A DNA stretch of 15,752 nt, taken from the NCBI GenBank assembly GCA_903930515.1, contig CAIYYW010000267.1, positions 1 through 15,752 of the forward strand, read 5' to 3'. The notes under the pieces were generated by a model. It searched no databases, had not been told where the DNA came from, and worked only from the letters and a program-made list of their open reading frames with translations. A program made the position numbers and the translations under genes. The DNA comes from an uncultured delta proteobacterium. GTDB lineage: Bacteria > RBG-13-61-14 > DRUE01. Of this stretch, positions 1-11,679 are shown piece after piece. Each line of letters opens with the position of its first letter. Within the stretch, counting starts at the first letter, position 1.

Positions 1-306
1 CACATCTTCTTCAAAAGGAAGGAAGGAGGCCGCTCCCGGGACCATAATCCCCTTGCCGTCCAGCTCCCCGCCCGGCTGGCGGATGACGATCTCCTTCACC
101 CCCTGCCCTTTCAACACTTCAAAAACCTGGAAGGTGTATTCCGTCCAGATCATATTCCCGGTCTGATATACCCGCTTGCCCGTGCAATTGCCGAGGATGA
201 TCTTGTCCGACTGATCGGTGAGCCGGTTCAGGTCCAGCGGGATCATCACCGTGGCCAGGCAAAGGCCGGGAAGCAAAACCAACAACGCGAGAATTTTCTT
301 CTTCAA
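1..306 (-). CDS. Secreted protein of unknown function, 5' part only
   Basis: The reading frame is open for 102 codons from a TTG at 304-306 to the left edge, so the C-terminus is missing. I chose TTG because AGGAGA (complement of 315-320) lies 8 nt upstream and the protein then begins with a perfect signal peptide: Lys-rich KKK, a Leu-rich core, and a likely cleavage site after LCLA near residue 18. The only Cys of the core is preceded by Leu, so it is not a lipobox. The mature part holds patterns such as SDKIILGN, FQVFEVLKG and VIRQPGGELDGKG, followed by VPGA and a Pro-Phe-Glu-Glu stretch. These recall a family of short secreted bacterial proteins with a YT-x-VEVLKG core, whose function I do not know. 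It is divergent from hisS, and the two share a 74-bp control region. Confidence 0.75.
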   Translation of the reverse strand, partial: MKKKILALLVLLPGLCLATVMIPLDLNRLTDQSDKIILGNCTGKRVYQTGNMIWTEYTFQVFEVLKGQGVKEIVIRQPGGELDGKGIMVPGAASFLPFEEDV

Positions 307-335
307 TTGACCTGTCTCCTTTCCTGTGTTTAAAT
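307..335 (+). promoter_or_regulatory. Likely sigma-70 promoter of the hisS-aspS operon
   Basis: TTGACC (307-312) is separated by 17 bp from TTAAAT (330-335), which is five of six and four of six matches to consensus. Transcription would start near 342, giving a leader of about 39 nt before hisS. The -35 hexamer abuts the TTG start of the divergent gene. Seen by eye only. Confidence 0.5.
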
Positions 336-345
336 AATCAGCTAA

Positions 346-364
346 TCCCGCGGCAGACGCGGGA
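346..364 (+). other. Perfect 7-bp hairpin in the hisS leader
   Basis: TCCCGCG (346-352) and CGCGGGA (358-364) pair perfectly around a 5-nt loop, 16 nt before the hisS ATG. There is no U-tract on either strand, so it is not a typical terminator. The leader is far too short for a T-box. It could affect hisS translation or simply separate the two divergent transcripts. Confidence 0.45.
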
Positions 365-380
365 CTCTTATGGAATAATT

Positions 381-1784
381 ATGAGCAAAAAATATCAGGT
401 TGTCAAAGGCTTCCGGGACATTCTGCCCCCGGAAAGCAAATTGTTCTGGCTGGCCGAAAAGCTGGCCCGCGATCTTTTCGCCCGGTTCGGGTACCAGGAA
501 ATACTTTTGCCCGTGCTCGAATCCTACGATCTGTTCGCCTGCAGCATCGGGACCGGCACGGACATAGTGGAAAAAGAAATGTTCATCGTCCCCGACAAGA
601 AGGGGCAGAACCTGGTGCTCCGGCCCGAGGCCACCGCGAGCGTGGTGAGGGCATATGTAGAGGGCCTGGCCAGCCAAGGCCCGGCCAAGCTCTTTTACTT
701 CGGGCCGATGTTCCGCTACGAGCGTCCGCAAAAAGGGCGCTATCGTCAGTTCTGGCAGATCGGCGCAGAGGCCATCGGATATGGCGGTCCGGGGGTTGAC
801 GCGGAACTGATTTTGTTGCTGGACCTTTACTTCAAGGACCTGGGATTGGCTGAGATTCAAATCCGGATCAATAACCTCGGTTGCAAAATCTGCCGGCCTT
901 CTTACCGGGAAGCCCTGGTAAAATACCTGACGGACAATGAAGCCGGCCTGTGCGAGGATTGCCGGAGAAGGCTTTCAACCAACCCGCTTCGGGTTTTGGA
1001 CTGCAAGAACGAGGCCTGCAAGACCATCGCTCAAAGCGCGCCCTGCCCCGGTGAATTTTTGTGCGTTGATTGCGCCTCTCATTTTGAAGGGCTCCAGCGA
1101 CTGCTCAACCTGCAAAAGGTTTCCTTCCAGGTGGACCCGAGGCTGGTGCGCGGCTTGGATTATTACACCCGGACCGTGTTTGAATTCCAGGCCCAGACCG
1201 GCCTGGGGGCGCAGAACGCGGTGGTGGGCGGGGGCCGGTATGACGGTTTGGTGGAAGAGATGGGAGGCAACCCCGCTCCCGCGATCGGTTTCGCGCTCGG
1301 GGTGGAGCGGCTGGCTCTTTTGCTGGAGCAGAAGATTTCCCGATCCGAGCTGGTGGCCGGGCCGGAGGTGTTCCTGATCTTTTCCGGGGAAGAAGCCTAT
1401 CGGTTCGCCTTTCAGCTCCTGTTCCTGCTCCGGGCCTCCGGCCTTTACGCCGAGATGGCCATTGACGAGCCTTCCCGCTCGCTCCGGAGCCAGTTGAAAT
1501 TTTCCGACCGGATCAAGTCCAAGTCCGCGCTGATTATCGGCGAGGATGAACTTAAGAATAAACTGCTTAACCTGAAGCTGATGGAGAGCGGCAAGGAATT
1601 GAAATTGGAGTATCAGGGCCTGAAAAACCTGGCCAATATTGACTGGGAGGAGTTGAAGAGTCATCTTCAAACCCCGGGCTTTGCGTATGCCGGCCGGGAA
1701 TACGAGCAGACCCTGGTCCAGAACCGGGACCTGTTGAAATTGTTGAAGATATATTTTAACGAGTTAAACAAGCTGGAGGCATAA
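381..1784 (+). CDS. hisS: Histidyl-tRNA synthetase (HisRS)
   Basis: Class II cytoplasmic enzyme that charges tRNA-His with histidine using ATP; 467 aa. Visible landmarks are the N-terminal KGFRDILPPE, motif 2 at about 111-126 (FRYERPQKGRYRQFWQ), the histidine-specific RGLDYYTRTVFE with the catalytic Arg257, VVGGGRYDG at 281-289, motif 3 near 301-312 (AIGFALGVERL), and a C-terminal anticodon-binding domain. The insertion domain carries nine cysteines (168, 171, 191, 194, 208, 213, 222, 228, 231), many as CxxC pairs, which could bind zinc. About 40 residues follow the usual C-terminus, making it longer than the common 420-430 aa. The ATG has only a weak ribosome site. The aspS ATG follows the stop codon directly, so the two are surely co-transcribed. 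Confidence 0.98.
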   Translation: MSKKYQVVKGFRDILPPESKLFWLAEKLARDLFARFGYQEILLPVLESYDLFACSIGTGTDIVEKEMFIVPDKKGQNLVLRPEATASVVRAYVEGLASQGPAKLFYFGPMFRYERPQKGRYRQFWQIGAEAIGYGGPGVDAELILLLDLYFKDLGLAEIQIRINNLGCKICRPSYREALVKYLTDNEAGLCEDCRRRLSTNPLRVLDCKNEACKTIAQSAPCPGEFLCVDCASHFEGLQRLLNLQKVSFQVDPRLVRGLDYYTRTVFEFQAQTGLGAQNAVVGGGRYDGLVEEMGGNPAPAIGFALGVERLALLLEQKISRSELVAGPEVFLIFSGEEAYRFAFQLLFLLRASGLYAEMAIDEPSRSLRSQLKFSDRIKSKSALIIGEDELKNKLLNLKLMESGKELKLEYQGLKNLANIDWEELKSHLQTPGFAYAGREYEQTLVQNRDLLKLLKIYFNELNKLEA

Positions 1785-3572
1785 ATGGAGGAATTGGGAA
1801 GCTGGAAGCGGACTTGCTATTGCACGGAGGTGGGCAAGCAGGACCTGGGGAAAGAGGTCTACCTGATGGGTTGGGTCAATTCTTACCGGGACCACGGCGG
1901 CGTGATCTTCATTGATCTGCGCGACCGGACCGGTTTGATCCAGGTGGTGTTCAATCCCGTTTTTGCGGGCACGGCGCACGATAAGGCGAATATGCTCAGG
2001 AACGAATGGGTGATTGCGGTTCAGGGAGAGGTGAGGGCCAGACCGCAGGATATGATCAATACCAAACTACCGACCGGCGGGATTGAAGTCTGGGTGAAGG
2101 AACTCCGGATTTTGAACCGATCCCTCGCGGTCCCGTTCGCGATTGAGGACGAGATCAAGATCAATGAGGAGTTGCGCCTGACCTACCGTTACCTTGACCT
2201 GCGCCGCCCGGAGATGCAGAAGAAAATCATTACCCGGCACCGGGTGGTCAAGCTGATCCGGGATTACTTTGACCAACACGGCTTCTATGAAATAGAAACG
2301 CCCTTCCTCACCAAGAGCACCCCGGAAGGAGCGCGCGATTACCTGGTCCCCTCCCGGCTCAATCCGGGAAAATTTTACGCCCTTCCCCAAAGCCCTCAAT
2401 TGTTCAAGCAGCTCCTGATGGTTGCCGGATACGACCGATATTTCCAGGTTGTGCGCTGTATGCGCGACGAGGACTTGCGCGCGGACCGACAGCCCGAGTT
2501 CACCCAGTTGGATGTGGAGATGAGTTTCCCGCGTCCGGAGGATATTTACGAACTGATGGAAGAGATGCTGGCAAAGGTCTGGAAGGAAATCATGGGGCTG
2601 GAAATTCCCCGGCCGTTTCCGAAAATGACCTGGGACGAGGCAATGGATAAATACGGCTGCGACCGGCCCGACACCAGATACGGTCTATTGCTGAAAAACC
2701 TATCCGACATTTTCCCCAACACGGAATACCGCTTTTTCAAGCAGGCGATTTCCGAGGGCGGGATCATCAAGGGATTGAACGCGCCCGGATGCGCGTCCTG
2801 GAGCCGCAAAGACACCGATGACCTGACCTATGCGCTCAAGGCATACGGCGCCAAGGGCCTGACCGTGATCCGCTATCAGGAAGAGGGGTTGGCCGGGCCG
2901 GTGGCAAAATACCTGAACGCGGACGAGCAGAAGCTGATGATTGAGCGGCTGGACGCCAAGGTCGGGGATGTGATGATGCTGATGGGAGACAAAGTATCCG
3001 TAACCAACGAGGCGATGAACCAGCTCCGCCAGATGATCGCGAAAAAAATGAAATTGGTTCCGGAAAATAAATTCAACTTCCTCTGGGTGACCGACTTCCC
3101 GCTCGTGGAATGGAGCGAGACGGATAAAAGATGGAAATCAACCCATCACCCCTTTACCAGCCCCAGGCCCGAGGACCTGGAAAAGCTTGAGTCCGAGCCG
3201 GGATCGGTCAAGGCCGTGGCTTATGATGTGGTGCTCAACGGCGTGGAGATCGGCGGAGGCTCCATCAGGATCCATCGGCCGGAGATCCAGGAGCGGGTCT
3301 TCCATATGCTGGGGATCAGCGACGAAGAGGCCAAAATCAAGTTCGGCTTTTTGCTTGACGCCTTCCGCTTCGGAGCGCCCCCCCACGGCGGGATCGCTTT
3401 GGGCATTGATCGCCTGATGCAGATTCTGGCGGGCGGCAACTCCATCCGCGATTGTATCGCCTTCCCCAAAACCCAGGCCGGGTCCGACTTGATGGTGAAC
3501 GCCCCGAACGAGGTGAGCGAGGATCAGCTTAAGGAGCTGCATTTGAAAATAATCAAAGAAGACCTTTCCTGA
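1785..3572 (+). CDS. aspS: Aspartyl-tRNA synthetase, probably non-discriminating
   Basis: Class II synthetase of the bacterial type, 595 aa, the family's usual length. It has an N-terminal OB-fold anticodon domain (about 1-130), the catalytic core with motif 2 around 200-246 (MRDEDLRADRQPEFTQLDVE), a GAD insertion near 300-420, and motif 3 (FGAPPHGGIALGIDRLM) near 529-545. In the anticodon domain the sequence reads YRDHGGVIFIDLRDR with His37. Family knowledge: His at this place marks AspRS that also charges tRNA-Asn, while E. coli-type discriminating enzymes have Leu. If so, Asn-tRNA would be finished by a GatCAB amidotransferase; none is in this window. The start abuts the hisS stop, with GGAGG at 1775-1779 inside the end of hisS, which indicates translational coupling. 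Confidence 0.98.
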   Translation: MEELGSWKRTCYCTEVGKQDLGKEVYLMGWVNSYRDHGGVIFIDLRDRTGLIQVVFNPVFAGTAHDKANMLRNEWVIAVQGEVRARPQDMINTKLPTGGIEVWVKELRILNRSLAVPFAIEDEIKINEELRLTYRYLDLRRPEMQKKIITRHRVVKLIRDYFDQHGFYEIETPFLTKSTPEGARDYLVPSRLNPGKFYALPQSPQLFKQLLMVAGYDRYFQVVRCMRDEDLRADRQPEFTQLDVEMSFPRPEDIYELMEEMLAKVWKEIMGLEIPRPFPKMTWDEAMDKYGCDRPDTRYGLLLKNLSDIFPNTEYRFFKQAISEGGIIKGLNAPGCASWSRKDTDDLTYALKAYGAKGLTVIRYQEEGLAGPVAKYLNADEQKLMIERLDAKVGDVMMLMGDKVSVTNEAMNQLRQMIAKKMKLVPENKFNFLWVTDFPLVEWSETDKRWKSTHHPFTSPRPEDLEKLESEPGSVKAVAYDVVLNGVEIGGGSIRIHRPEIQERVFHMLGISDEEAKIKFGFLLDAFRFGAPPHGGIALGIDRLMQILAGGNSIRDCIAFPKTQAGSDLMVNAPNEVSEDQLKELHLKIIKEDLS

Positions 3573-5005: not shown

Positions 5006-5797
5006 ATGCGGATGAAAATAAGCTGCGGCAAAATCGGCCTTATCTCGCTTGCTTTGACTATGCTGATCCTTTGCTTAAAAACCGCCGGCGCTAAAAAAGG
5101 CAGCCGGGAAGACCTGGGGAAATATAGCGGTCCCCGGGTGGAAGCCGCGCGGAAAAGCCAGACGCAGGAAATAATTAAATTGTTTGAAAAAGCCGGACTG
5201 ACCCGCCCCTCCGATAAAATATTCATCCGCGTGTTCAAGCTGGAGCGCTCAGTGGAGCTTTGGGCTTTTCACCCGGAAGGCGGCAAATATAAATTGATCC
5301 AGGAATATCACGCCTGCGCCTTAAGCGGGAACCTTGGACCCAAGCGCAAACAGGGAGACCACCAGGTCCCCGAGGGGTTCTATAACATCACGGATTTAAA
5401 CCCGGCCAGCCGTTTCCATTTATCAGCCCGGGTGAACTATCCCAACCAGTCCGATCTGATCCTGGGAAACAAGCTTTTGCCCGGCGGAGATATTTTCATT
5501 CACGGCTCCTGCGTTTCCGACGGCTGCGTCTCTATCCGGGACCAGCCGATTGAGCAGGTGTATCTGATCATCCTGGACGCCAAAGCCGCGGGCCAGAAGA
5601 ATATCCCGGTCCATATTTTCCCCTGCCGGATGGACAAGTCCTATTGCGAAAGCACGCTGGGTTTTTTCTCCATGGACAAGGAAGGCCTGAAAACCTTCTG
5701 GGATTCCCTCAAGCCGGGCTATGATTATTTTGAAGCCAACCAGACCGTCCCGGAAATCAAGACCAACCCGGACGGGTCTTACCAGATCAAGCAATGA
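5006..5797 (+). CDS. YafK/DpaA-like L,D-transpeptidase-family protein, periplasmic
   Basis: 263 aa. A short basic N-terminus and a hydrophobic stretch (ISLALTMLILCL) ending near TAGA form a signal peptide or anchor. The rest is a YkuD-fold domain with the catalytic motif HGSCVSDGCVSI: His166, Ser171, Gly173 and the nucleophile Cys174. FIRVFKLERSVELWAF, GNLGPKRKQGDHQVPEGFYNI and NPASRFHLSARVNYPNQSD match the layout of E. coli YafK (DpaA). Family knowledge: DpaA cleaves the bond between Braun lipoprotein and peptidoglycan, while other members make 3-3 cross-links, so the reaction here is either hydrolysis or transpeptidation in the cell wall. ATGs at 5006 and 5012 are both possible starts. The stop overlaps the next gene by 4 nt. 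Confidence 0.92.
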   Translation: MRMKISCGKIGLISLALTMLILCLKTAGAKKGSREDLGKYSGPRVEAARKSQTQEIIKLFEKAGLTRPSDKIFIRVFKLERSVELWAFHPEGGKYKLIQEYHACALSGNLGPKRKQGDHQVPEGFYNITDLNPASRFHLSARVNYPNQSDLILGNKLLPGGDIFIHGSCVSDGCVSIRDQPIEQVYLIILDAKAAGQKNIPVHIFPCRMDKSYCESTLGFFSMDKEGLKTFWDSLKPGYDYFEANQTVPEIKTNPDGSYQIKQ

Positions 5798-6951
5798 AAC
5801 TCTCCAGGCGGGAGTCCATCAAGATCGGCGGTTTAATGGCAATGACTGTTTTATCTAAAAAAATATTGGCCGGAATTTTCGGAACGGAAAGATTCTTCCC
5901 GGTCTTTGAGATCGGCGCCCAGGATTATTTTGAGCTGGGTCAGAAAATCGGCGCCCGGGCAAAAGCCCGGGTTCATTCCGGGCTGAAGCGAAGAAAAAAA
6001 TGGATGGCGGATTTGAAAAAATTCGCGGACGCGGACCGCCGGAAACGCTTTGATCCCTTCCTGGCTGCGCTCAAGCGGAACTTTCCCGATTACCTGGACG
6101 AGCTTAAAGGCATTGCCCAAGGCGCGGAGGTTGATTTTGATCTGATCTTTACGCTCAACTTGAACCCGGAATTGAGCGCGATGATGAGGGCGGGCCGGGA
6201 AGAGGACTGCTCAACCGTGATCGCGAAAACCGGCGACAAGATTTTGCTCGGTCATAATGAAGACGGCTCCGAGCAATACCTGGACTTGATGTTTCTGCTC
6301 AAAGCCAAAACTCCGGCCGGGAAAATATTCTTCGCCCTGACCTATCCCGGAATCATCCCCGGAAACGGGCCTGGGATCAACAACCAGGGGATCATCCATA
6401 CCTGCAATTACATCGGCGGCAAAAAATTTCAAGAAGGCATCCCCAGGTATTTTATTGACCGGGCGATGCTGGAAGCGGATTCAATGGACCAGGCTATTTC
6501 CTTCGGATCCCATCCGGCCCGGGCCTATTCCCAGGCCCATAATTTGGTGTCCATTTCGGAAAAACGCGCCGTAATGCTGGAAAGCTCGGTAAGCAAGGTC
6601 GCGGTCAAGGAGGTGAACGGGATTCTTCCCCGAACCAATCATTACATCCTTCCGGAAATGCGGGACGAGCCGGAATTCGCTTCCTACCAAATGAATTCGC
6701 TCCCGCGCTTGAAAGCCCTGGAAGCAGAGTTGGCCGGGATCAGCCCGGAACAGATCAACGCCGAGCTCATCCTCAAATCGCTCAGCTCTCACAAAAACAG
6801 CCCGATCTCCCCCTGCCGTCATAAAAACAAGGCCGTCCCCGGAGCTACCCTGGGAACTTTTATCTTTGACAGCGCCAAAACCGAATTCCAATTCTTCTAC
6901 CAAAGTCCCTGCAAAGACCTCGTCCAGAAATTCCCGCGACCGTCCGGTTGA
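5794..6951 (+). CDS. C45-family Ntn-hydrolase (acyltransferase-like), probably Tat-exported
   Basis: 385 aa, starting in an ATGA overlap with the previous gene. The N-terminus SRRESIKIGGLMAMTV resembles a twin-arginine (Tat) signal. Residues 136-158 hold the family hallmark: EEDCST with Cys139, then LGHNEDG with Asn155, Glu156 and Asp157. This is the arrangement of peptidase family C45 (penicillin acyl-CoA:6-APA acyltransferase relatives). Later motifs PGIIPGNGPGINNQGI and RTNHYILPEM (the His-rich NH near the middle of the fold) also fit. Family members hydrolyse or transfer acyl groups on amides, and a few act on beta-alanyl or muramyl-type amides; the substrate here is unknown. In classic members the nucleophile is freed by cleavage between Gly and Cys, whereas here Asp precedes Cys. 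Its place after a cell-wall enzyme suggests a periplasmic role. Confidence 0.82.
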   Translation: MKLSRRESIKIGGLMAMTVLSKKILAGIFGTERFFPVFEIGAQDYFELGQKIGARAKARVHSGLKRRKKWMADLKKFADADRRKRFDPFLAALKRNFPDYLDELKGIAQGAEVDFDLIFTLNLNPELSAMMRAGREEDCSTVIAKTGDKILLGHNEDGSEQYLDLMFLLKAKTPAGKIFFALTYPGIIPGNGPGINNQGIIHTCNYIGGKKFQEGIPRYFIDRAMLEADSMDQAISFGSHPARAYSQAHNLVSISEKRAVMLESSVSKVAVKEVNGILPRTNHYILPEMRDEPEFASYQMNSLPRLKALEAELAGISPEQINAELILKSLSSHKNSPISPCRHKNKAVPGATLGTFIFDSAKTEFQFFYQSPCKDLVQKFPRPSG

Positions 6952-7092
6952 TAAGTTGAAAGGATGATCGGTTAAAGAAGGCATCGGAACAGCCTCCCTT
7001 GTCGGCGTAATCGTGGTGCGTTCTAAAAATATCAAGTCGTTCCTTGCCGCGGATAGTTCCTTGAGGTCCCGGATCAGGTCCGCGAGGGTTTC
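6952..7092. other. Gap between the C45 gene and hicA, holding a recG fragment
   Basis: 141 bp between two convergent genes. No clear terminator (stem plus T-run) is visible on either strand. The only recognisable content is the 50-bp copy of recG sequence at 7036-7085, described separately. Confidence 0.6.
7036..7085 (-). repeat. 50-bp direct repeat, copy 1: orphan fragment of recG
   Basis: Identical to 7779-7828 at 49 of 50 positions. Read on the minus strand it would encode the same residues as RecG 665-680 (ADLIRDLKELSAARND). The one difference (7044 T, 7787 G) changes CGG to AGG, both Arg. It lies 8 nt beyond the hicA stop codon and happens to be in the hicA frame. Sequence on both sides is unrelated to recG. 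Confidence 0.95.
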
Positions 7093-7320
7093 TCAAAGCA
7101 ATTTGAGGAACTGATCCAGGTCTATTTGGGCTTGTTTGAGGATGTGCGCGAGGGTGGAACGCTTGACCGGAGTGTGAGCGGGAACGGTCAGTTTGAGAGT
7201 TTTTTCACCCATATTTTTTTGAAGCCGGATATGACTCCCTTTCTGACGCACAACCACCCATCCATCTCGGCGAAGGGCATAGATGATTTGCCGGTAAGAA
7301 AGGCTGGGGACTTTGCTCAC
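7093..7320 (-). CDS. hicA: HicA-family mRNA interferase toxin
   Basis: 75 aa, a double-stranded-RNA-binding-like fold. Family knowledge: HicA toxins cleave mRNA, using one essential His. Visible: SYRQIIYALRRDGWVVVRQKGSH, with Gly28-Ser29-His30 being the catalytic site, then LTVPAHTPVKRSTLAHILKQAQI, the standard HicA C-terminal half. The start is GTG at 7318-7320, overlapping the hicB stop by 4 nt (GTGA), so toxin translation follows that of the antitoxin. Length is normal and all expected motifs are intact, so it is probably active. The gene sits between recG and a stray recG fragment. Confidence 0.93.
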   Translation of the reverse strand: MSKVPSLSYRQIIYALRRDGWVVVRQKGSHIRLQKNMGEKTLKLTVPAHTPVKRSTLAHILKQAQIDLDQFLKLL

Positions 7321-7520
7321 AAGATCAGTTCCTTGACCGTGGCCTTTTCGCTCGGCTGGGCGTCATCTTCAATATTTTCCAGGTAAAGCTCAATGGCCTC
7401 CCGGATATTAGCCAGAGCCTCTTTCTCGGTTTCCCCTTCACTGATGCAGCCGGGAAGCGAGGGCACATAGACCGTGAATCCGCCTTCCTCGCTCGGCTCC
7501 AGAATCACCTTTACTTTCAT
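7317..7520 (-). CDS. hicB: HicB-family antitoxin, short form
   Basis: 67 aa. The sequence follows the HicB pattern: KVILEPSEEGGFTVYVPSLPGC, then ISEGETEKEALANIREAIELYLE. This is the partial RNase-H-like fold that covers the HicA active site. There is no C-terminal helix-turn-helix or ribbon-helix-helix domain, so unlike longer HicB proteins it may not repress its own promoter. AGGAGG (complement of 7527-7532) lies 6 nt before the ATG, a very strong ribosome site consistent with antitoxin excess. The order is antitoxin first, the reverse of E. coli hicAB but common elsewhere. Confidence 0.92.
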   Translation of the reverse strand: MKVKVILEPSEEGGFTVYVPSLPGCISEGETEKEALANIREAIELYLENIEDDAQPSEKATVKELIL

Positions 7521-7545
7521 CTCCAGCCTCCTTACGGTTTGCTAA

Positions 7546-7574
7546 TCTATAATGTAATTATGGCTATTTGTTCA
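7546..7574 (-). promoter_or_regulatory. Possible hicBA promoter
   Basis: On the minus strand TGAACA (7574-7569), 17 bp, then TATAGA (7551-7546); four of six matches each. The stretch is noticeably AT-rich, and initiation near 7539 would give a leader of about 19 nt that contains the AGGAGG site. The 147-bp gap to recG (7521-7667) shows no other gene, so hicBA probably has its own promoter rather than relying on recG. Confidence 0.35.
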
Positions 7575-7667
7575 GCGCTTTTCAACCAAAGCCTTTGAGC
7601 TTGACCCTTGAGCGGAATTGCCGCATTTTGAGTTTATAACCGGAAACGGCAAACCAAAAACAATAAT

Positions 7668-9818
7668 TCATCCCGCCCTTGCCAGGTGCAGGAACTTTCC
7701 GTATTTTTGGCGGATCTCTTTCCGGAGCGGGGCCAGGTCGGGCCGGTTGATGTTTCCGGTTTCGATCCATTGGAAGGCGTCGTTCCGTGCCGCGGATAGT
7801 TCCTTGAGGTCCCGGATCAGGTCCGCGAATCTGAACGGGGGCATCCCGCTCTGCGCGGTTCCGAGGAATTCTCCGGGCCCGCGCAGGCGCAGGTCGGTTT
7901 CCGAGATTTTGAAACCGTCGGTGGTTTCGGTCATCACCTTAAGCCGCTCCCGGGCCGGGTCGGTGAGGGGGGGATGCGCGACCAAAAAGCAGATCGCGGA
8001 TTTGTCGCTTCGGGCCACCCGTCCCCGGAGTTGATGAAGTTGGCTCAAGCCAAACCTCTCCGCGTGTTCAATCACCATCGCCGTGGCGTTGGCGACATCA
8101 ATCCCGACTTCAATCACGGTAGTCGCGATCAGGATTTGGATTTCGCAGACTCGGAATTTTTCCATCACCGCTTCCTTTTCCTCGGGCTTGAGCCTTCCGT
8201 GCAAAAGCCCGAGCCGATATTCCGGAAAGACTTGTCGGGAAAGCTCCTGGAATTTTTGGGTGGCGTCCTGCAGCTCCATCCGTTCCGACTCCTCCACCAG
8301 CGGATACACCACATAGGCCTGCTCGCCCTGTCCGACCCGCTTTTTCAGTTCGCGCCAGGCCGCGTTGACTTCGCGGGCCTTAAGCAGTTTGGTCTCAACC
8401 GGTTTTCTTCCCGGGGGCAACTGGTCCAGGATGGAGATGTCCAAATCTCCGAACGCGGTCATTGCCAGACTTCTCGGAATCGGGGTTGCGGTCATCACCA
8501 AAATATGCGGGGTCTCACCCTTGCCCTTGGCTTTGAGACGGGAACGCTCGGCCACTCCGAAGCGATGCTGCTCGTCAATGATGGCAAGACCTAGTTTGGC
8601 AAACTCCACCTTTTCCTGGATCAGGGCCTGGGTCCCGACCAGAAAAGAAAGCTCGCCGGTCCTTGCCTGGTTCAGAACTTTTTCCCGCTCTGGCCCGCGC
8701 ACGCCCGAAGTGAGCAGGGCGGAGGAGATGCCCATCTGGTCCAGCCCGCGATGGATATTGAGCCAATGCTGTTCCGCCAGCACCTCGCTGGGAGCCATCA
8801 TCGCGGCCTGCAAGCCGCCGGCAATGGCCCGGAGCGCGCAAAACAGCGCGATCACGGTCTTGCCCGAGCCGACATCGCCTTGGAGCAATCGGTGCATGGG
8901 CCGCGGCCGGGCCAGGTCATCCTCAATCTCAAGGAGCACCCGCTCCTGGGCAGCGGTCAATTGGAAATGCAGGAGCGACCTGAATTTTTGGATTTGAGCA
9001 TCGCCTCCTGAAATCGGTTTTGCCGGGCTTTCCGACAATCCCCTCCGGCTCAGGGCCAAAGCCATCTCCAGCACAAAAAATTCCTGGTAATAGAGCGAGC
9101 GATGCGCAAGTGTCCTATGCTCGTTGAGGGCGTGGAGATCCGCGTCCATCCCCGGGAAATGAAGGTTGTGGAGCGCGCCCTTGAGATCAAGCCAATGCCG
9201 CTGTTCCAAAAGCTCGGCCGGGACAAAATCAAGGAGCTGGTCCAGGTTGAGCGAAAGCGCCTGGTTGGTGAGCGCCCGGAAAGTTTTTTGTGAAAATCCC
9301 TCGGGCAAAGAATAGATCGGCACGATCCGTCCGAAGCTGAGGGAATCCAGCTCTTCCCCCTCTTCCAATACTTCCAGCTCCGGATGATCCATTTCCAGAA
9401 GGTCTCCGTATTCGCGGACGGTCTGGCTCGCAACCACCACCCTGCCCTTCTGGATTTTTTGTTGCAGATAATTCCCGGGCAGATGAAACCATTTCAAGGT
9501 GAGCGCGCCGGTGCCGTCGTCAATCACGGCCTGAAAAGCCTGTCTCCGCCATCTCCCGCTTTTGGAAACCGCGATCACCTTGCCGGTGGTCACGGCTTTG
9601 ATTCCGGGCCGGAGCCTGGAGATCTGGGTGGTCTCGCGCCGATCCTCATAGCGGAAGGGCAGATGGTAGATCAAGTCCTGGATGGAGCCGATCCCTTTTT
9701 GCAGGAGCCTTTCGCCCAAGCGGGGCCCGACCCCTTTCAAATAACGAGCGGAATCCTTCAAGCCCGGCTGATATTTATCCGCGGATTTAGGGGACGGAAG
9801 GGTTGGCTCGGGGATCAT
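7668..9818 (-). CDS. recG: ATP-dependent DNA helicase RecG
   Basis: 716 aa, close to the family norm. RecG reverses stalled replication forks and migrates branched DNA. Domains in order: an N-terminal region with a helix-hairpin-helix-like stretch (YLKGVGPRLGERLLQKG), the OB-fold wedge domain (about 65-170), helicase domain 1 with Walker A GDVGSGKT at 314-321, motif Ia PSEVLAEQH and the DEQH box at 415-418, TATPIPRSLAM, then helicase domain 2 with GLLHGRLKPEEKE, ATTVIEVGIDV and QLRGRVARS, and the C-terminal TRG region (FKISETDLRLRGPGEFLGTAQSG). Residues 664-680 are encoded by one copy of a 50-bp repeat; the protein runs intact through it to a normal-looking end. It is divergent from the Crp/Fnr gene. 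Confidence 0.98.
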   Translation of the reverse strand: MIPEPTLPSPKSADKYQPGLKDSARYLKGVGPRLGERLLQKGIGSIQDLIYHLPFRYEDRRETTQISRLRPGIKAVTTGKVIAVSKSGRWRRQAFQAVIDDGTGALTLKWFHLPGNYLQQKIQKGRVVVASQTVREYGDLLEMDHPELEVLEEGEELDSLSFGRIVPIYSLPEGFSQKTFRALTNQALSLNLDQLLDFVPAELLEQRHWLDLKGALHNLHFPGMDADLHALNEHRTLAHRSLYYQEFFVLEMALALSRRGLSESPAKPISGGDAQIQKFRSLLHFQLTAAQERVLLEIEDDLARPRPMHRLLQGDVGSGKTVIALFCALRAIAGGLQAAMMAPSEVLAEQHWLNIHRGLDQMGISSALLTSGVRGPEREKVLNQARTGELSFLVGTQALIQEKVEFAKLGLAIIDEQHRFGVAERSRLKAKGKGETPHILVMTATPIPRSLAMTAFGDLDISILDQLPPGRKPVETKLLKAREVNAAWRELKKRVGQGEQAYVVYPLVEESERMELQDATQKFQELSRQVFPEYRLGLLHGRLKPEEKEAVMEKFRVCEIQILIATTVIEVGIDVANATAMVIEHAERFGLSQLHQLRGRVARSDKSAICFLVAHPPLTDPARERLKVMTETTDGFKISETDLRLRGPGEFLGTAQSGMPPFRFADLIRDLKELSAARNDAFQWIETGNINRPDLAPLRKEIRQKYGKFLHLARAG
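7779..7828 (-). repeat. 50-bp direct repeat, copy 2: within recG
   Basis: This is the native copy, since ADLIRDLKELSAARND fits the C-terminal consensus of RecG proteins. Its partner is at 7036-7085 in the same orientation, 743 bp away. The two copies enclose hicBA and the last 36 codons of recG. Confidence 0.95.
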
Positions 9819-10778: not shown

Positions 10779-10785
10779 AATGGTG

Positions 10786-11679
10786 ATGGACGCGGTGGCG
10801 CGATTTTGGGAACATCTTCGGGTGGAACAGGGGATGAGCCGTAACACCCTCTCTTCTTATCAACGCGAGCTTTGCCGTTTCCAGGAATGGCTCCCGAATA
10901 AAGATTGGGCCGCGGTCAAGCCCGACGAGATCCGGGAATACCTGGCGGGGTTGCGTCGGGAGGGAATCGGGGCGCGCTCGGCATACCATAACCTGGCGGT
11001 GATCCGTCGCTTCTACCGTTTTTTATTGGAGGAGGAGTTGGTGGATGCGAACCCATCGGAGCTGGTGGAGTTCCCCAAATTAGATGAGCCGCTCCCGGAA
11101 TGGCTGAGCCGGGACGACGCGAAAAAAATGCTGAACGCGGTCAAGGACGACACTCGGGAAGGGATCCGGAATCGGGCGATCCTGGAACTGCTTTACGGAT
11201 GCGGCTTACGGGTGAGCGAACTGACCGGTCTGCGGCTGGACCATCTGCATTTTGAGTTGGGGTATATCGTCGCCCTGGGCAAGGGCAAAAAGGAGCGGGC
11301 CATTCCGATCAACGATCTGGCGAAAGCGGCTTTGCAAAAATACCTGCATGAGAGCAGAGGCTTTTACGACAAGAGCCGGAGCAGTCTGTATTTGTTCCTC
11401 AACCGCCAGGGCAAGCGATTGAGCCGGCAATCGGTTTTCAATCTGGTCAAGAGGACCGCGCTCCAGGCGGGGTTCAGGGGCACAATCTCTCCGCATACCT
11501 TCCGCCATTCCTTTGCCACCCATTTGCTGGAGGGGGGCGCCAATCTGCGGGCGGTGCAACTGATGCTCGGTCATTCCGATATTTCCACCACGGAAATTTA
11601 CACCCACCTGGACCGGGTGCGTTTGCGGAAGGAATATGACGAGAAGCATCCCCGGTCTCGGATAAGGAGCGGCAAATGA
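10786..11679 (+). CDS. xerD: Tyrosine site-specific recombinase, XerD-like
   Basis: 297 aa from ATG 10786 (299 aa if ATG 10780 is used). Family knowledge: XerC/XerD resolve chromosome dimers at dif during division. The N-terminal SAM-like domain reads FWEHLRVEQGMSRNTLSSYQREL. The catalytic domain has all expected residues, numbered from 10780: Arg144 in GCGLRVSEL, a Lys in GKGKKERAIPI, His239 and Arg242 in SPHTFRHSFATHLLEGG, His265 in LGHSDISTTEIYTH, and the nucleophile Tyr274. The ending KHPRS and the HSD-STT-IYTH wording favour XerD over XerC. I prefer 10786 because the -10 box would start the mRNA there. The stop overlaps the DUF1232 gene by 4 nt. It is a housekeeping gene, not evidence of a mobile element. 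Confidence 0.93.
   Translation: MDAVARFWEHLRVEQGMSRNTLSSYQRELCRFQEWLPNKDWAAVKPDEIREYLAGLRREGIGARSAYHNLAVIRRFYRFLLEEELVDANPSELVEFPKLDEPLPEWLSRDDAKKMLNAVKDDTREGIRNRAILELLYGCGLRVSELTGLRLDHLHFELGYIVALGKGKKERAIPINDLAKAALQKYLHESRGFYDKSRSSLYLFLNRQGKRLSRQSVFNLVKRTALQAGFRGTISPHTFRHSFATHLLEGGANLRAVQLMLGHSDISTTEIYTHLDRVRLRKEYDEKHPRSRIRSGK

Follow-up and report, generated by a model that had tools for sequence, protein, structure and literature searches.

How did a piece of recG come to lie beyond the toxin gene of the neighbouring toxin-antitoxin (TA) locus? In the window, by which we mean the whole 15,752-nucleotide stretch of DNA that was analysed, hicBA is bracketed by two directly oriented copies of a 50-bp segment, 743 bp apart and identical at 49 of 50 bases (Table 1). 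The initial annotation had described this repeat, and its coordinates, orientation, spacing and identity proved exact on recheck; alignment confirmed that the outer copy is an isolated fragment of recG past hicA and that the inner copy is native recG code. The HicA and HicB domains sit in an overlapping two-gene operon with the antitoxin first, and besides the recG tail the DNA between the two copies contains only hicB and hicA, with no recombinase gene. A XerC/XerD-like tyrosine recombinase ORF, recognised by eye at 10780-11679 of the window, ~3.3 kb from hicBA, is probably a housekeeping enzyme. The genome that contains the window, G000, comprises 3.65 Mb in 401 contigs, with an estimated contamination of 2.4%.

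Table 1. Features of the recG-hicBA locus, in window coordinates.
Feature	Position	Strand	Description
AAT-family gene	5794-6951	+	PF03417; convergent with recG and hicBA
Gap between outer copy and AAT gene	6952-7035	.	84 bp; without recG tail
Outer 50-bp copy	7036-7085	-	Isolated recG fragment, recG sense on minus strand
Spacer, hicA stop codon to outer copy	7086-7092	-	7 bp
hicA toxin	7093-7320	-	75 aa; PF07927, 60.6 bits; overlaps hicB stop
hicB antitoxin	7317-7520	-	67 aa; PF15919, 47.7 bits
recG-hicB intergenic region	7521-7667	-	Includes hicB upstream sequence; 74% to G001 over 128 columns
recG	7668-9818	-	716 aa, intact; Pfam RecG_wedge, DEAD, Helicase_C, RecG_dom3_C; G001 alignment
Inner 50-bp copy	7779-7828	-	Native recG codons 664-680

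Both edges of the repeat are sharp, and chance is excluded as its origin because the longest of the other direct repeats in the window reach 27 nt, at 74% identity. When up to 3 mismatches were allowed, the 41-base exact core of the repeat occurred at only two places in the 401 contigs, one of them in recG; the genome-wide search that the initial annotation had proposed thus found no third copy, and the 50-mer is not a dispersed repeat. The only base that differs between the copies is a synonymous Arg change, which the initial annotation had suggested would fit a related, selected allele. This difference says nothing on selection, since of the 150 single-base changes that the segment could undergo, 40 (27%) are synonymous. 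Two other candidate roles of the 50-mer were rejected: RNA structure, because folding was no better than that of shuffled sequences (z from -0.9 to +0.7), and a terminator, because the terminator scan was negative at the copy. Deletion between the copies is predicted to produce an 864-aa RecG fusion that runs antisense through the AAT gene, which agrees with the earlier expectation that no normal RecG end would result; recG is not restored. The outer copy ends 36 codons before the recG stop, and these last 36 codons and the stop are absent. If the outer copy were an old recG fragment left behind, as had been proposed, these codons would be expected past the 50-mer; a search of 6900-7035 for the missing tail found no match longer than 9 bp. 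The gap at 6952-7035 has no significant match to G001 loci or to the sampled contigs.

We compared the locus with a single genome of the same genus, G001, whose recG is 69% identical. The order of the recG tail, the intergenic region and hicB is the same there; the C-terminal tail of recG is homologous to that of G001, and hicB at the same position is identical at 88% of amino acids and 85% of nucleotides. As this order is common to both genomes, the linkage of recG and hicB predates the split of the window lineage and G001, so that a recent arrival of hicBA together with a replacement recG tail is contradicted. The comparison of the tail with the rest of recG points the same way as regards that idea: DNA identity to G001 is 76-78% over codons 601-680 and 70% in the tail, GC3 is little changed, and a foreign recG tail was rejected for want of a supporting step in divergence or GC3 at the 50-mer. 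Ten sites of the inner copy differ from G001 recG within the 50-mer; at all 10 the outer copy has the state of the inner copy, and it has one private change when it is compared with both. Because it shares all the states that separate this recG from that of G001, the outer copy was made from this lineage's own recG after the split, or was homogenised with it.

The MFS-YkuD-AAT block is conserved in G001, where the AAT ortholog is followed by the apparent start of a Phd/YefM-like antitoxin (by eye). On the hicB side of G001, hicA is lost directly after its start codon, and a DUF262-like frame (by eye) comes next, together with a sequence that recurs at contig ends. By this comparison, the interval between hicA and the AAT gene is variable and rearranged between G000 and G001. 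The orphan hicB of G001 is located at L004 (G001:C240) 1-1043, where by eye hicA is replaced by a DUF262-like (GmrSD-type) frame. The recurring sequence, AACTTAACTACCTGTCCAGTTTTTGGGGGG, occupies positions 1-38 of L004, at the contig end, and recurs in G001 at ~8 further places, most of them close to the end of a contig; it is probably an IS end.

To place the repeat in context, direct repeats of at least 40 bp, with at least 90% identity and a spacing of 300-1500 bp, were collected from 120 G000 contigs picked by number with their content unseen (1.03 Mb). Besides the window, four such repeats were found, and all four enclose or sit within TA loci. On contig C101, the repeat is 119 bp from a solute-binding-protein gene and encloses hicBA, with one copy reaching the contig end. 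On C202, 54 bp from the end of tatD flank a PIN/DUF2281 (vapBC-type) pair, and on C207, 80 bp from the end of a ferredoxin-domain gene flank a RelB-like/ParE pair. C206 has a 239-bp tandem duplication inside a hicBA locus, assigned from its sequence. The C206 duplication, at L155 (G000:C206) 6462-7273, is 98% identical and results in two hicB segments and a truncated first hicA.

The association was also seen from the side of the TA loci. Among 59 TA loci located by sequence or Pfam search in G000, G001 and a further genome, G002, six are bracketed at the repeat thresholds given above, versus 0.2% of 20,000 random 200-bp intervals drawn from the sampled G000 contigs (Fisher p = 4e-9, or 1.9e-7 if the window is omitted and 7e-6 if C262 is omitted as well), an enrichment whose size is approximate because the random control is from G000 only and core-gene loci are an imperfect match for plastic regions. 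The bracketed loci are unevenly distributed (5/16 in G000, 0/23 in G001 and 1/20 in G002). In other phyla, 6 of 30 HicA loci are bracketed, two of the six in one array, while recG-centred control loci had no such repeat in 133 kb, and over 293 kb 0.03% of intervals were bracketed. No bracketing repeats were found at the hicB/hicA loci of plasmids (5) and viruses (1), and phage records gave no match to HicA. The repeats at C262, L280 and L290 look like dispersed intergenic repeats and are kept in the raw tally only. A tRNA 3' end as target on C96 of G002 (L240) was discarded, as the 27-bp match continues as tRNA-to-tRNA similarity; L284 looks tRNA-like, and ARAGORN found no tRNA there. The pairing of a TA module with a duplicated 3' end of its neighbour, as first noticed at recG, therefore recurs in G000 and in other genomes, but the specific arrival with a recG tail that had been built on it is unsupported.

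At four of the other loci, joining across the copies gives a full-length host gene. Three of these are in G000, namely C207, C202 and C94 (hicBA at a xylose-isomerase-like gene), and one is in another phylum, G037 (hicBA at a metallo-beta-lactamase-fold gene). One copy starts 0-9 bp past the toxin stop codon in the window (7 bp), in C207 (6), C202 (2) and C94 (9), and in an array of genome G005. In C202, the outer copy has a stop codon of its own that abuts a convergent GH31-like gene, and it shares with G001 four states that are absent from the inner copy. These four states and the end adjoining the GH31-like gene mark the C202 outer copy as the original gene end and the TA pair as the insertion. 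In G005, which represents a third phylum, a 215-aa protein lacking any Pfam match is encoded next after a urocanase gene (PF17392), and hicBA modules come after it. A copy of the urocanase 3' end lies 0-2 bp past the toxin stop of each module, and the first module is 67-68% identical in amino acids to the HicBA of the window. The modules at L293 (G005:C15) 294-3165 and at L275 are separated by urocanase 3'-end copies of 40-90 bp.

Several of these sites have further features. At L065 (G000:C94) 1905-2430, two duplicated host-end pieces follow hicBA in swapped order, and a palindrome and an apparent C-terminal fragment of a REP-type transposase lie nearby (by eye). G001 has hicB at recG and vapBC at tatD, and at its FeS gene the sequence departs at the stop codon and then reads as a different TA-like pair. 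By eye, L263 (G001:C579) 2560-2951 contains a DUF4258/DUF2283-like pair after the ferredoxin-domain gene, at the place where G000 has the RelB-like/ParE pair. No single-copy empty site for the TA insertions was found among the loci compared with G001.

The window resembles the other TA loci in being bracketed, in having the repeat directly behind the toxin stop and in that the repeat comes from a host gene. On balance, we favour the view that the outer 50-mer is a scar of illegitimate joining that accompanied the insertion or re-joining of the TA module and was later truncated or remade on the AAT side. In this process, the 3' end of a host gene would receive a piece of DNA ending just past the toxin stop codon, and if the two joints were offset, the gene end would be duplicated and one intact copy of the gene would survive. 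Such insertions may persist through addiction: an inserted module would be hard to lose because a cell that loses it is exposed to its toxin. Subsequent deletion or re-joining on the hicA-AAT side would then have left only 50 bp of recG. Against a scar count the lack of the recG end in the window copy, the failure of excision to restore recG, and the absence of such repeats at the 23 G001 TA loci and at the plasmid and viral loci. Since the recG-hicB linkage is older than the copy, the copy cannot be an undisturbed scar of the first insertion, unless it has been homogenised.

The main rival is a duplication in which the TA module played no part. Repair of a break or stalled fork between hicA and the AAT gene would have copied 50 bp from recG, ~700 bp away, and the copied end would then have been joined to the AAT side. 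A single event of this kind accounts for a piece of recG that is short, internal and lacks the end of the gene, and it agrees with the rearranged hicA-AAT interval and with an outer copy that is young and stems from the recG of this lineage. No Ku gene was found in G000-G002, which fits copying over classical end joining. However, no such repeats occur away from TA loci in 1.03 Mb, and the joint 7 bp past the toxin stop resembles those at the other TA loci, so that we consider this rival possible but rather unlikely. Ku-dependent end joining itself was rejected on the absence of Ku from the G000-G002 search.

Re-acquisition within the species or genus is improbable. The recG 3' end and hicBA of a donor would have entered a strain lacking hicBA, by homologous recombination within recG on one side and illegitimate joining past hicA on the other, and the outer 50-mer would be the old recG allele of the recipient, truncated later; this is the proposal of the initial annotation with a deletion added. 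Such a history would explain at once why the copies differ by a synonymous change, why the outer one is recent and why recG and hicB are linked across the genus, but it requires an extra deletion of at least 111 bp, and divergence from G001 has no clear break at the 50-mer. A chimeric join in this metagenome-assembled genome, which 401 contigs and 2.4% estimated contamination might suggest, is very improbable, because the two copies are not identical (one base differs), a misjoin within the core that they share would itself require a genome with hicA or the AAT gene beside a recG fragment, and the pattern is repeated in several independent assemblies.

Known systems offer partial parallels. 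Long target duplication by restriction-modification systems is reportedly credited to Nobusato et al. 2000 and Furuta et al. 2010. As in the window, a selfish, addiction-type unit there lies between host-derived direct repeats of tens to ~100 bp and variable length; the units here are type II TA modules (hicBA, relBE/parE, vapBC) instead of restriction-modification systems. Passages in PMC3874152 and PMC3031569 describe the insertion of some restriction-modification systems with long, variable target duplications of the order of 100 bp, and an example appears in a passage of PMC1643837. The window has a repeat within the range of ~50-100 bp that flanks such units (50 bp, 49/50) and a single-copy host target (two genomic copies, one in recG). 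Excision restores the target at C207, C202, C94 and G037 but not in the window. We do not assign the window to this class because the copy is internal to recG, recG is not restored, and the copy is younger than the recG-hicB linkage.

Elements bounded by attL and attR sites of tyrosine recombinases likewise have direct repeats of a host 3' end, and the host gene is intact at the other loci described here. In contrast to such elements, no integrase is seen in these units of ~0.5-0.8 kb, repeat boundaries vary by locus, and the window repeat is internal to recG and excised without restoring its target. As regards an IS or transposon, a search for inverted pairs of at least 20 nt found no such terminal repeats at the ends of the recG-hicBA unit. 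As a type II TA system, the window HicBA is ordinary, with HicA (PF07927) and HicB (PF15919) overlapping and the antitoxin first; its toxicity and neutralisation are predicted from sequence, and the interest of the locus lies in the flanks and not in the proteins.

These findings bear on how chromosomal TA systems spread when no vehicle is evident. Passages in PMC2654758 and PMC3874152 stress the mobility of chromosomal TA systems and give no insertion mechanism for bare modules. The literature searched, whose coverage of subscription journals was incomplete, yielded no account of bare TA modules inserting with long target duplication. The recurring bracketing in G000 and other bacteria suggests that TA modules enter genomes through imprecise insertion, in which the end of the neighbouring gene is copied. 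More tentatively, and with somewhat less than even confidence, we propose that type II TA modules of several phyla may move as bare cassettes into the 3' ends of host genes and duplicate 40-120 bp; that this would be repeatable and give rise to arrays such as that at the G005 urocanase gene; that it may need a general activity in trans; and that recG-hicBA would be a decayed example. This TA-wide pattern is wider than the case of the window and is the part worth following. Should bracketing by the duplicated ends of host genes prove general, it would provide a searchable insertion signature that marks unit boundaries, the divergence between copies would date TA insertions, and TA systems would be tied to the mode of insertion already inferred for restriction-modification systems.
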